Positions 19,177 through 23,573 of a stretch of DNA of 51,198 bases are shown in pieces. Origin of the DNA: Verrucomicrobiota bacterium. GTDB taxonomy: Bacteria > Verrucomicrobiota > Verrucomicrobiia > Opitutales > Opitutaceae. Below the pieces are notes generated by a model. It made no database searches and was not told the origin of the DNA. It worked only from the letters and a program-made list of their open reading frames with translations. Numbering within the stretch: the stretch's first letter is position 1; each line of letters begins with the position of its first letter. A program made the translations under genes and the position numbers. The stretch lies in NCBI GenBank assembly GCA_030601755.1, contig JAUWBF010000015.1, forward strand, positions 1 to 51,198, given 5' to 3'.

Positions 19177-19449
19177 ATGGGTATCGTCAAAATCATCATC
19201 GGGGGCGTGTTCGTCCTCGTGGGCCTGCTGGTCGCGGTGTTCGCGATGCTGCTCGGCGTGGTCGCGTATCTTTTGCAACGCCTCTTTGGCAAACCCGGCC
19301 GTCGTCCGGCGTTCCAGTTTCAATACTCCTTTTCCCGCGGCCGCGCCACGCCGCCGAGGTCTCCGCGCTCTGCGCCGCCCGGCGATGTGATCGACATCGA
19401 GACGACCGACGTGGAGACCATCGAGTCCAAGCCGGAGCGGCTGAAGTAG
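19177..19449 (+). CDS. Small single-pass membrane protein, unknown function
   Basis: A 90-residue protein. Residues 3-33 are a long hydrophobic helix (IIIGGVFVLVGLLVAVFAML). The rest is a basic, Ser/Arg/Pro-rich tail that ends with an acidic stretch (DVIDIETTDVETIES). It follows the Dabb gene by 80 bases on the same strand. I do not recognise a family. The stop codon TAG at 19447-19449 lies inside the first arm of the palindromic repeat, so the last residues may have been set by insertion of that element. Confidence 0.65.
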   Translation: MGIVKIIIGGVFVLVGLLVAVFAMLLGVVAYLLQRLFGKPGRRPAFQFQYSFSRGRATPPRSPRSAPPGDVIDIETTDVETIESKPERLK

Positions 19450-19532
19450 GGGCCGAGCTTGCTCGGCCCGTCGGCGGAGGGAAAACCGACCCTCGGACTG
19501 CGACCAACGGGCGTCGCGAGCGACGCCCCTAC
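19446..19532. repeat. Two-armed palindromic repeat, copy A
   Basis: The left arm (19446-19474) starts GTAGGGGC and contains the stem CCGAGC-TT-GCTCGG. The right arm (19503-19532) is its approximate inverse and, read on the minus strand, also starts GTAGGGGC with its own stem (GTCGC/GCGAC). A spacer of 28 bases lies between the arms. The TAG in each outer GTAGGGGC is the stop codon of a neighbouring gene: the small membrane protein on the plus strand and the acyl-CoA dehydrogenase on the minus strand. A second copy lies at 21451-21529. Confidence 0.85.
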
Positions 19533-21427
19533 GCCTTGGCGGTCGGAAACGGCGGCCGCGACAGGCCGGGGTCCTTGGGCCGCAGGTAGGTGTGGCGTCC
19601 GTCGAGCAGCTCGCGCGAGAGCGCGTGGTGCGCGTCGTCGGTGTTGGTCGCCAGGTCGCGGTGCAGCGCGTCGATGCGCAGGCGGGCGCGGCGGTGCAGG
19701 CAGACCACCAGCCTCAGCAACTCCTCGCGCGGGTGATTGGGGCAAAGACCCTTGATCAACGCGTCCGCGCGCAACGTCGACGCGGTCAACGCGAACAGCT
19801 CCGTGCCGATGTCCACGATGCGGCCGAGCGTGAGCTGGCGTTTCTCCAGCGCCGGGCCGTGCAGGGCCATCGCGTGAAAGAGCGTGCGGGCGAGCCGGCG
19901 CGAGGCGCGGCGCGCGTAGGCGAGCACGGGGGCGAGCTCGGGCGTGAGTCCGGCGGGCGTGCCGTTGGCCGGCAGCCAGACCGACGGATACCAGAGCGCG
20001 TAAAAACCGCCGGCCTTCATCGCGGCGGCGGCGCGTTTGCCGAGCGGTAGTCGTGTGTCCAATACGGCGCCGGCGACCTTCAGGTGCGGGTCGAGCGCCT
20101 CGCGGGCGAGGAACAGGTGCATGATCTCGGTGGAGCCTTCAAAAATGCGATTGATACGGCTGTCGCGCAGGTAGCGCTCGACCGGCACGGGGGTCTCGCC
20201 GCGGGCGCGTTGCGAGGCGGCGGTTTCGTAGCCGCGTCCGCCGCGGATCTGCAACGTGTCGTCGACCGCGCGCCAGCCGGCTTCGGAGCCGTAGAGCTTG
20301 CACATGGCGGCCTCAAGGCGGATGTCGGCGTGCGGGTCGCGGTCGACCAGCGCGGCGGTGAGCAGGACCATCGACTCTGTGGCAAAGATGTCGGCGGCGA
20401 GCTGCGCGAGTTTTTCCCCGATGGCGGCGTGTTTGCCGATGGGCGCGCCCCATTGTTCGCGGGTCTCGGCCCAGTCGAGCGCGTGGTCGAGGCACTTTTG
20501 CATGAGGCCCACGCAGGCGGCGGGGATGGTGAGGCGGCCGGTGTTGAGGGTCGTCAGGGCGACCTTGAGGCCGCGGCCGACGCCGCCGACGATGTTGGCC
20601 GCGGGCACGCGCACGTTGGTAAAACGAACGACGCCGTTGTAGAGCGCGCGCAGACCCATGAAGCGGCAACGCGTGACGACCTCGACGCCAGGGGTGTTCA
20701 TCTCGACGATGAAGGCGGTGATGCGCCGGCGGGGCTTGCCGTTGACCACCTCGTCGGGCGTGCGCGCCATCACGATGATGACGCCGGCCTTGGTGCCGTT
20801 GGTGCACCAGAGCTTTTCGCCGTTGATGACGTAGTGCCGGCCGTCGGCCTCGGGCTCGGCGGTGGTCTTCATGCGTGCCGGGTCGGAGCCGACGTCGGTC
20901 TCGGTGAGCGCGAACGCGGAGATCTCGCCCTTGGCGACGCGGGGCAGAAACTTGCGCTGCTGTTCCTCGGTGCCGAAGAGCTTCAGCGGCTGCGGCACGC
21001 CGATCGATTGGTGCGCGGAGAGCAATGCGGTGAGGTTGGCGTCGGTCGCGCCGAGCAGGCGGGCGGCGTGGCAATAGTTGGTCTGCGAGAGGCCGAGCCC
21101 GCCGAGGTGCTTGGGAATTTTTATCCCGAACGCGCCGATGGCCGCGAGGTGTTGGATCACCGGCTCGGGGATCTCGCCGTCGGCGTCGATCTGGTCGGCG
21201 TCGACTTCGTCGCGCAGGATGCGGGCGAGTTCGGTGAGAAACGGCTGTCCGGCCTCGATGTCGGCGGGGCTCTGCTCGGGAAACGGATACACCTGGTCCC
21301 AAGCGCAGCGGCCCATGAACAGGCCGCCGGCGAAACTGCGGTCCTCGTCGTTGCCGCGGGCGGCCTCGGTCAGCTCGAGGGCCTCACGCTGACCGGCGGA
21401 CATTTTGGACGTGTCGATGTTGCTCAT
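19529..21427 (-). CDS. Acyl-CoA dehydrogenase, long-chain type
   Basis: A 632-residue flavoenzyme that introduces the first double bond into acyl-CoA in beta-oxidation. The length and a C-terminal extension of about 170 residues resemble the VLCAD/ACAD9 group rather than 380-residue short-chain forms. FAD/substrate signatures are FALTETDVGSDP, EKLWCTNGT, QIRGGRGYE and RIFEGSTEIMHLF, in which the Glu aligns with the VLCAD catalytic base. It is the last gene of the operon, 55 bases after fadJ. Its TAG stop at 19529-19531 is supplied by repeat copy A. Confidence 0.93.
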   Translation of the reverse strand: MSNIDTSKMSAGQREALELTEAARGNDEDRSFAGGLFMGRCAWDQVYPFPEQSPADIEAGQPFLTELARILRDEVDADQIDADGEIPEPVIQHLAAIGAFGIKIPKHLGGLGLSQTNYCHAARLLGATDANLTALLSAHQSIGVPQPLKLFGTEEQQRKFLPRVAKGEISAFALTETDVGSDPARMKTTAEPEADGRHYVINGEKLWCTNGTKAGVIIVMARTPDEVVNGKPRRRITAFIVEMNTPGVEVVTRCRFMGLRALYNGVVRFTNVRVPAANIVGGVGRGLKVALTTLNTGRLTIPAACVGLMQKCLDHALDWAETREQWGAPIGKHAAIGEKLAQLAADIFATESMVLLTAALVDRDPHADIRLEAAMCKLYGSEAGWRAVDDTLQIRGGRGYETAASQRARGETPVPVERYLRDSRINRIFEGSTEIMHLFLAREALDPHLKVAGAVLDTRLPLGKRAAAAMKAGGFYALWYPSVWLPANGTPAGLTPELAPVLAYARRASRRLARTLFHAMALHGPALEKRQLTLGRIVDIGTELFALTASTLRADALIKGLCPNHPREELLRLVVCLHRRARLRIDALHRDLATNTDDAHHALSRELLDGRHTYLRPKDPGLSRPPFPTAKA

Positions 21428-21450: not shown

Positions 21451-21529
21451 GTAGGGGCCTCGCTTGCGAGGCCCGTTGAGCGTCATGGCGGAGATAGCGT
21501 CGAACGGGCGTCGCTCGCGACGCCCCTAC
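21451..21529. repeat. Two-armed palindromic repeat, copy B
   Basis: The left arm begins GTAGGGGC with the stem CTCGC-TT-GCGAG (21451-21480). The right arm (21501-21529) is inverted and, on the minus strand, begins GTAGGGGC with the stem GTCGC/GCGAC. It is the same kind of element as copy A and lies in the gap between fadJ and the acyl-CoA dehydrogenase gene. Here the minus-strand TAG is out of frame with fadJ, so translation runs into the element and stops at 21483-21485. Confidence 0.85.
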
Positions 21530-23573
21530 TGGATGCTGAATGAAATGCAGAGGTCGTCTTCAGGTAATCACAGGGCGCGAAGTGCGCGCCGTCGCTGGCG
21601 GCGAGGGCTTCGAGGTGGCGCACGATCTCGGGCAGGCCGACGCTGTCGGCGTAGCGCAGCGGACCGCCGCGGAACGGCGCCCAGCCGGTGCCGAGGATCA
21701 TGGCGAAGTCGAGGTCGTCGGCGGACGCGGCCACCTGCTCGGCGAGGCAACGCGCGGCCTCGTTGACCTGCACGAGCACTATGCGGTCGACGTAGTCCGC
21801 CGGTGCGGGCGGCGGCAGGCCGAGGTTGATCGGCTGGTGCGCGGCATGGTCATAAAAACCACGTCCCGATTTTTTCCCGAGGTGACCGTCGGCGACCATC
21901 TTCGCGAGCAACGGATCGGGGCCGGGCAAATGCGGTAGGCGGGCGGCGAGGTCGTTGGCCACGTGCAACGCGACGTCGAGGCCGACCTCGTCGGCGAGGC
22001 GCAGCGGGCCCATCGGCAGACCGAAATCAAGGAGCGCCTGGTCGATCGCGGCGACGGAGTGGCCGGCGGCGACGAGGCGCACGGCCTCGACCAGGCCGGG
22101 CAGGAGCACGCGGTTCACGAGGAAGCCGGGCGAGTCCTTCACGATGACCGGCAGTTTCCCGAGTCGATGAGCAAAGGCCAACGTGGTGGCGACGGTGTCG
22201 TCGTCGGTGCGCGGGCCGCGCACGATCTCGACGAGCTGCATGCGGTGGACCGGGTTGAAGAAATGCAGGCCGATCACGCGGCCGGGGTGCGCGAGGTTTT
22301 GCGCGATGGCGTCGATGGACAGCGCTGAGGTGTTGGTCGCCAGCACGGTGTCTGCGCGCACGCGGCGCTCGAGGTCGGCGAAGATGGCGCGTTTGGCGTC
22401 GAGTTTTTCAACGGCGGCCTCGACCACGAGATCGACGTCGCCGAGCGGCACCGGCGCGTGGGCGGGCGTGATGCGGTCCATGCCGGCGGTGGCCTCGGCG
22501 GGCGTGAAGACGCGGCGCTTGGCCGCCTCGCGGTAAACGGTCTCGATCGTGCGCAGGCCCTTGGCGAGCGCGTCGGGGGCGACGTCGCGCAGGACGACCG
22601 GCAGGCCGCGCGCGCTGGTCCACTGGGCGATGCCCGCGCCCATGACGCCCGCGCCGACCACGGCGACCTTGCGCACGGGTCGCGCGGTGCCGGCGGGCAC
22701 GGAGAGTTTTTTGGCGCGGTCCTGCTGAAAGAAAATGTTGAGCAGGCTGGCGCACTCGGGCGTGCGGATGAGTTCGAGGAAAGCGGCCTTTTCCAAGGCG
22801 AGCGCCATGTCGACGGGTTGGCCGAGCGCGGCGGTGCAGACTTCGAGCGCCTTGAGCGGCGCTGGGTAGTGGCCATGGGTCTTGGCGAGCACATCGCGGC
22901 GGGCCTTGGCCGCGACGAGATCACGGATCAGCGGCAAATGCAGGGGACGGAAGGAAGGGGGCGGGCGTTTGCCGCGGGCGAGCAGGGCGCGGGCGGCGTC
23001 GGCGAGGTATTCGGGGTGGGCGATGTCGTCGACGAGGCCGACTTTGCGGGCGGGAACGGCGGCGAGTTGTTTGCCCGTGAGAATCAGACCGAGCGCGGCG
23101 GGCAGGCCGATCAGGCGCGGCAGTCGGACGGAGCCGCCCCACGCGGGCAGGATGCCGAGCTGGGTCTCGGGCAGGCCGATCTTGGTGGCCTTGCCATCGG
23201 TGGCCACGCGCCAGTCGCAGGCGAGGGCGAGTTCGCAACCGCCGCCAAGGCACGCGCCGTGGATGGCCGCGACGGTCGGCACGGGCAGGCGTGAAAGCCG
23301 TGTGAACACGCGGTGGCCGAGGTCGATGATGCCGGCGAGCGCATCGGGGTCAGGCGAGCTGACGAACGCGTGCAGGTCGGCGCCGGCGATGAATATCTTG
23401 TCCTTGGCGCTGATGAAGACAACGCCGCGCAGGCCGGCGTGGCTCTCGAGCGCGGCGAGGTGGCCGTCGAGTTCCTCCAGCGTGGGACGGTCAAAGACGT
23501 TGGCCGTGGAACCGGCACGGTCGAAGGTCAGCGTGGCGACGTGGTCGGCGTCGATGTGTAATTGAATATTCAT
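21483..23573 (-). CDS. fadJ: Fatty oxidation complex alpha subunit: enoyl-CoA hydratase / 3-hydroxyacyl-CoA dehydrogenase
   Basis: A 696-residue bifunctional enzyme for the two middle steps of beta-oxidation. Residues 1-190 are a crotonase domain with the oxyanion parts IAGADL and HGACLGGGCELALACD. From about 300 comes an NAD-binding dehydrogenase domain: VAVVGAGVMGAGIAQ, NTSALS, GLHFFNPVHRM, DSPGFLVNR and a second helical domain with GHLGKKSGRGFY. Start ATG 23573 overlaps the fadA stop (ATGA). The last 20 or so residues (…SSRGVASDARSTLSPP) are translated from palindromic repeat B and are not part of the family. FadB/FadJ cannot be distinguished with certainty; the fadJ symbol is by similarity. 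Confidence 0.93.
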   Translation of the reverse strand: MNIQLHIDADHVATLTFDRAGSTANVFDRPTLEELDGHLAALESHAGLRGVVFISAKDKIFIAGADLHAFVSSPDPDALAGIIDLGHRVFTRLSRLPVPTVAAIHGACLGGGCELALACDWRVATDGKATKIGLPETQLGILPAWGGSVRLPRLIGLPAALGLILTGKQLAAVPARKVGLVDDIAHPEYLADAARALLARGKRPPPSFRPLHLPLIRDLVAAKARRDVLAKTHGHYPAPLKALEVCTAALGQPVDMALALEKAAFLELIRTPECASLLNIFFQQDRAKKLSVPAGTARPVRKVAVVGAGVMGAGIAQWTSARGLPVVLRDVAPDALAKGLRTIETVYREAAKRRVFTPAEATAGMDRITPAHAPVPLGDVDLVVEAAVEKLDAKRAIFADLERRVRADTVLATNTSALSIDAIAQNLAHPGRVIGLHFFNPVHRMQLVEIVRGPRTDDDTVATTLAFAHRLGKLPVIVKDSPGFLVNRVLLPGLVEAVRLVAAGHSVAAIDQALLDFGLPMGPLRLADEVGLDVALHVANDLAARLPHLPGPDPLLAKMVADGHLGKKSGRGFYDHAAHQPINLGLPPPAPADYVDRIVLVQVNEAARCLAEQVAASADDLDFAMILGTGWAPFRGGPLRYADSVGLPEIVRHLEALAASDGAHFAPCDYLKTTSAFHSASSRGVASDARSTLSPP

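Follow-up and report, generated by a model that had tools for sequence, protein, structure and literature searches.

Repetitive extragenic palindromes (REPs) tagged by GTAG are treated, along with those tagged by CGTC, in the 2013 survey of Di Nocera and colleagues (PMC3733652), whose text locates the GTAG repeats close downstream of ORFs and remarks in section 15 that their termini often provide the TAG stop—there called “opal”—of flanking ORFs, a remark given without a number. According to the same text GTAG repeats frequently form dimers, with spacers mostly of 20–100 bp, and one member of the Verrucomicrobia, Opitutus terrae, is highly enriched in them. The BIMEs or REPINs linked to RAYT (TnpAREP) transposases likewise consist of two GTAG-headed REPs in opposite orientation around a short spacer (PMC2817692, PMC8266576). 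For the enzymes of E. coli, Stenotrophomonas and Marinomonas the GTAG motif has been tied to recognition by the transposase and, as the authors suppose, to the choice of the cleavage site (PMC8266576 in its relevant passages), so that the conservation of the head can be understood without reference to stop codons. A search of PMC6006769 for Verrucomicrobia, Opitutus, PVC and stop codons found nothing, and a literature search on Opitutus palindromes or REPs returned no title on the subject among the matches listed.

The locus described here lies in a window of 51,198 nt—the whole stretch of DNA analysed—from the draft genome of a member of the Opitutaceae. An element that we call copy A is found there between two convergent ORFs:

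19177..19449, plus strand: ORF of 90 aa, putative membrane protein, weakly supported as a gene (codon score 22.3; no Pfam match; no match in 18 other genomes)
19446..19532, no strand: copy A, two-armed GTAG REP dimer, BIME/REPIN-like (sequence; among the 45 exact two-armed sites of the genome; fold)
19446..19469, plus strand: REP arm 1, with GTAG head, 9-bp stem and 2-nt loop (sequence; stem 9/9)
19447..19449, plus strand: TAG of head 1, stop of the plus-strand ORF (sequence and ORF list; offset 0)
19509..19532, minus strand: REP arm 2, inverted, with GTAG head, 9-bp stem and 2-nt loop (sequence; stem 9/9)
19529..19531, minus strand: TAG of head 2, stop of the acyl-CoA dehydrogenase ORF (sequence and ORF list; offset 0)
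19529..21427, minus strand: acyl-CoA dehydrogenase, 632 aa, with a C-terminal tail unlike those of its nearest orthologues (Pfam; orthologue tails)

Copy A is an inverted pair of GTAG-headed palindromes, 87 bp in length: GTAGGGGCCGAGCTTGCTCGGCCC opens the segment, a spacer follows, and the inverted second arm carries GCCCCTAC at its end, the GTAG head of each arm leading into the stem. The initial annotation had read GTAGGGGC at both outer ends of 19446–19532, pointing inward, and had seen the element as extending from stop to stop. Both statements are borne out and the coordinates are exact: the TAG of the plus-strand ORF ends at 19449, and that of the minus-strand ORF lies in the other head. 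As single strands the two strands of copy A fold at -49.5 and -50 kcal/mol (z of -3.85 and -3.88), and in either fold the two heads base-pair with one another. The minus-strand ORF contains the Pfam domains Acyl-CoA_dh_N, _M and _1; its nearest relatives carry the labels Verrucomicrobia and Opitutaceae.

The elements match, as far as their sequence allows to judge, the published GTAG class of REPs and REP dimers. They have a terminal GTAG at both ends, a palindromic stem-loop by the head and many dispersed, mostly intergenic copies; two inverted REPs are separated by a short spacer, as in a BIME or REPIN. With the repeats of the survey (PMC3733652) they share the GTAG head, the palindromic stem, the location downstream of ORFs and the TAG-supplying termini, and frequent dimers likewise. 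The GTAGGGGC family could not be matched to one of the numbered families there in a comparison with the main text of the survey, which contains no word starting GTAGGGG.

In the window GTAGGGGC has 7 matches where 0.79 are expected, a count reached by none of 100 shuffles, and in the 3.55-Mb draft genome this 8-mer occurs 232 times. The exact two-armed pattern is present 45 times in the genome and the reversed-pattern control not once; with three elements of slightly longer spacer, the genome contains at least 48 two-armed elements. The stretches of the own genome that we examined include 157 of the 232 sites, with all 45 exact elements and the three others, and in these stretches the stem is paired at 9/9 positions (G-U allowed) for 107 of the 157 heads. 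A stricter pattern removed 5 of 118 candidate heads, four of which resemble chance hairpins; the fifth, C74:369, has a 9/9 stem, follows a gene stop at a distance of 24 nt and is probably a genuine single REP. Three of the 113 accepted heads lie inside called genes and one is read through, the location being mostly intergenic. The two-armed pattern was found in 7 of the 29 genomes searched (the own counted), all seven of the same family. One locus (L010 1711–1918, contig C16 of G000) shows same-strand heads at 1718, 1818 and 1918, i.e. a small tandem array in 100-bp steps.

As to the enzyme of the RAYT-linked BIMEs and REPINs, no RAYT flanked by a GTAGGGGC repeat was found in the own draft genome. 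Three Y1_Tnp proteins are encoded there, all under the NCBIfam REP_Tyr_transpos cut-off, by RAYT-like Y1 transposase genes, two of them at contig ends:

L107, 2937–3536: RAYT-like Y1 transposase gene
L108, 3–929: RAYT-like Y1 transposase gene
L109, 2770–3954: RAYT-like Y1 transposase gene

These loci, two of which run into contig ends with one flank unseen, contain no GTAGGGGC. The inverted-repeat search round the genes yielded pairs of at most 31 nt, 71–94% complementary, and no GTAG-headed pair among those shown. The relative G017, given as 97% complete and carrying 11 two-armed elements, has no Y1_Tnp match.

Stop use was counted on genes called by a codon-score script that we wrote, for which the own genome was the only training set and which served for the relatives as well; it was run on 435,551 bases in the own genome and on the surroundings of the elements in six relatives. 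Among the 170 ends of 85 elements in the seven genomes, 12 are the exact stop of a gene running in; seven of these belong to the own genome and the other five to relatives (two in G017, two in G005, one in G002). At 65 ends a stop is placed 4–60 nt upstream of the head and at 28 ends 61–300 nt upstream; the frame continues past the head at 3 ends, and the remaining 62 lack a convergent gene end within reach, so that 158 of the 170 ends are not a called stop. Apart from the exact stops, the sole called stop less than 7 nt before a head is at offset -6, and 42 of 108 are situated 7–30 nt upstream.

No single offset is as common as 0, with 12 cases for 5 at the runner-up. Tested as a Poisson count against the 1.14 cases per position at the offsets around it, this peak has P = 3.5e-9, a value that is overstated because all in-frame insertions in the last codons collapse onto the same offset. 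The frame test is free of this problem, on samples that are small: 12 of the 15 coding frames reaching a head are in the TAG frame, for one third expected (P = 2.9e-4), and 7 of 9 in the own genome only (P = 0.008). TAG, normally named amber, is otherwise a rare stop in these stretches: it ends 24 of the 371 called genes of the own genome that are not ended by a GTAGGGGC head. Two of the three frames running past a head belong to elements deep inside long genes. In L098 (6444–6533, contig C135 of G000) and L269 (1982–2058, G002) the elements are within long called genes, whose frame continues beyond the head.

We consider it very probable that the GTAG REP dimers are tolerated insertions near the 3' ends of genes, retained where the head closes the reading frame. 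The element is a dimer of GTAG-headed REPs, a non-autonomous repeat of a kind believed to be mobilised by REP-associated tyrosine transposases; its head is intrinsic to the repeat, the class being named for it. Copies landing near gene 3' ends would survive best. If an insertion took place inside dispensable last codons, the gene might work on only if its frame were soon closed: in one of three frames the head would supply TAG at once, and in the other two translation would enter the hairpin. Because these other frames would be translated on into the hairpin, the surviving copies that touch a gene would be enriched for the TAG frame. Mobility, insertion and this selective step are what we infer; the anatomy, the copy number, the distribution of offsets, the frame bias and C-termini unlike those of relatives are observed directly.

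The double stop that the initial annotation attributed to both convergent genes stands in that the two TAGs do terminate both ORFs; it is less secure in that the case for the 90-aa ORF as a gene is weak. This ORF has no Pfam match, a search of the 18 other genomes gave no hit at E <= 0.001, and among the nine called genes listed around copy A it has the lowest codon score. On the other hand the score of 22.3 is over the threshold of the script, 12, and the translation opens with a long hydrophobic stretch. That the ORF is not a real gene, the double stop then being half an artefact, thus appears to us unlikely, though it deserves to be weighed. Once the ORF is discounted the stop ends number 11, no element terminates both neighbours, and the frame test gives 11 of 14 (P = 7e-4), with 6 of 8 in the own genome (P = 0.02).

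Where, then, did the genes end before? It had been proposed that the element either inserts at stop codons or has replaced the original gene ends, and we compared the C-termini of orthologues; for the dehydrogenase the nearest one is 72% identical, too distant to represent a true empty site. Its six nearest orthologues (L138–L142 and L159, 68–72% identity), whose loci all lack GTAGGGGC, end at query positions 620–622 for 632 in our protein, i.e. they stop 10–12 residues earlier, and five of the six do so in a TAG of their own. The dehydrogenase comparison rests on 79 of 80 loci, L160 being left out for a match that broke off too soon. At least five of the 79 (L144, L155, L156, L172, L177) have a local alignment that crosses a stop in frame, and the contig gives out before the end in L155 and L203, so that the printed ends of these loci are wrong; none of them is among the six nearest.

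Other genes closed by a head behave in a similar way. The glycosyltransferase on contig C80 ends at 423 and its four relatives at 424–431, the 73%-identical one in TGA and the other three in TAG, with the end of L223 just one residue away; the membrane protein on C128 ends 3 residues beyond its only relative. Two of the five exact-stop ends in relatives were compared with orthologues, those of a cytochrome c biogenesis protein (G005) and of a formyltransferase (G002). The former ends at 194 and its ten relatives at 183–200, none of them at 194; the latter ends at 358 and its ten relatives at 358–369. A P-type ATPase ends at 153, for five relatives at 149–173 and none at 153. The tails of these ten, ten and five relatives were picked by hand from the listed matches. 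Several relatives, of the dehydrogenase, the glycosyltransferase and other genes followed, stop in TAG. Left out of the argument are the 90-aa ORF, the C125 gene, for which the 18 other genomes gave no hit, and the phosphofructokinase-like gene of C45, whose tail is not alignable with that of its nearest relative, itself ending in TAG.

As the relatives end mostly at other columns, in variable tails, new gene ends are favoured over insertion at old stops. The replacement of original gene ends, for the dehydrogenase and five other genes, thus gains support: most likely, to judge from these alignments, the repeat sets a new gene end inside a dispensable tail. Insertion at stop codons fails as a rule, since only 12 of 170 ends are stops and 65 have a stop 4–60 nt upstream; the offsets and most orthologue ends rule it out as the main mode, and insertion exactly at an old stop may have occurred at single loci. 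Orthologues ending at the same TAG were looked for too, and mostly other columns were found, with two nuances: among the 79 dehydrogenase loci read, the distant L215 (53% identity) has the same end count and a TAG but a different tail, and one of the ten formyltransferase relatives, L298, shares the end column but stops in TAA.

The same data bear on a related explanation, in which the transposase would target TAG or GTAG and the element would insert at pre-existing TAG stops, the stop being target and not cargo. It could draw on the TAG of five of the six nearest dehydrogenase orthologues and of three of the four glycosyltransferase relatives (that of L223 one residue off), as well as on L215 and L298; but the relatives of the dehydrogenase, the glycosyltransferase, the cytochrome c biogenesis protein and the ATPase end mostly at other columns, stops are few among the element ends, and TAG is otherwise rare as a stop. 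We regard this explanation as quite improbable.

Outside genes, in the own-genome stretches, GTAGGGGC heads are stops in 7 of 119 cases and other GTAG tetramers in 11 of 226. With frequencies so close, no special part of the head in providing stops needs to be assumed, nor do the counts support one. The enrichment shows in the TAG frame and hardly in the rate per GTAG. It seems highly improbable that the GTAG head is kept partly for closing reading frames, the tolerance of the host for TAG-frame insertions maintaining the recognition motif of the transposase.

As to the double stop, convergent genes flank 34 of the 85 elements on both sides; from the rate of 12/108 per end, 0.42 element ending both neighbours is expected among these 34, and one is seen, which leads us to reject the double stop as a special feature. 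A dimer lying between convergent genes would at times terminate both. The idea that an element bringing its own stops would be tolerated between convergent genes remains plausible as regards tolerance (12 of 15 frames at TAG versus one third); a dedicated bidirectional stop finds no support, other GTAGs outside genes being stops about as frequently as the REP heads and the single double case being at chance level. Highly improbable is a selected bidirectional gene-end module, stopping translation both ways and ending or protecting transcripts by its hairpin: the strong folding of both strands of copy A, the 34 elements between convergent genes and the description of published REPs as mostly downstream of genes (PMC3733652) would suit it, but double stop use concerns one of 85 elements, GTAGs of the repeat outside genes serve as stops at a rate near background, and at 93 of the 170 ends the gene upstream is already closed by a stop of its own.

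That REP termini provide TAG stops is already in print, and the case of copy A, which is tidy but ordinary, leaves the knowledge of REP elements unchanged. Counts are now put on the unnumbered remark of the 2013 survey (section 15, PMC3733652). Besides, the tolerated insertions indicate that a small repeat, presumably mobile, can redefine the C-termini of proteins without obvious damage.

A second element is found on the other side of the dehydrogenase gene:

21451..21529, no strand: copy B, like copy A, between the start of the dehydrogenase gene and the end of the next minus-strand gene (pattern search)
21483..23573, minus strand: 3-hydroxyacyl-CoA dehydrogenase/enoyl-CoA hydratase gene (Pfam; gene call; codon view; orthologue ends)

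The reading frame of the 3-hydroxyacyl-CoA dehydrogenase gene crosses one arm of copy B out of phase with the TAG, and the gene ends in the spacer, at a TGA. Its C-terminal tail, absent from the printed tails of the orthologues, is encoded by copy B at 21483–21529 of the window.
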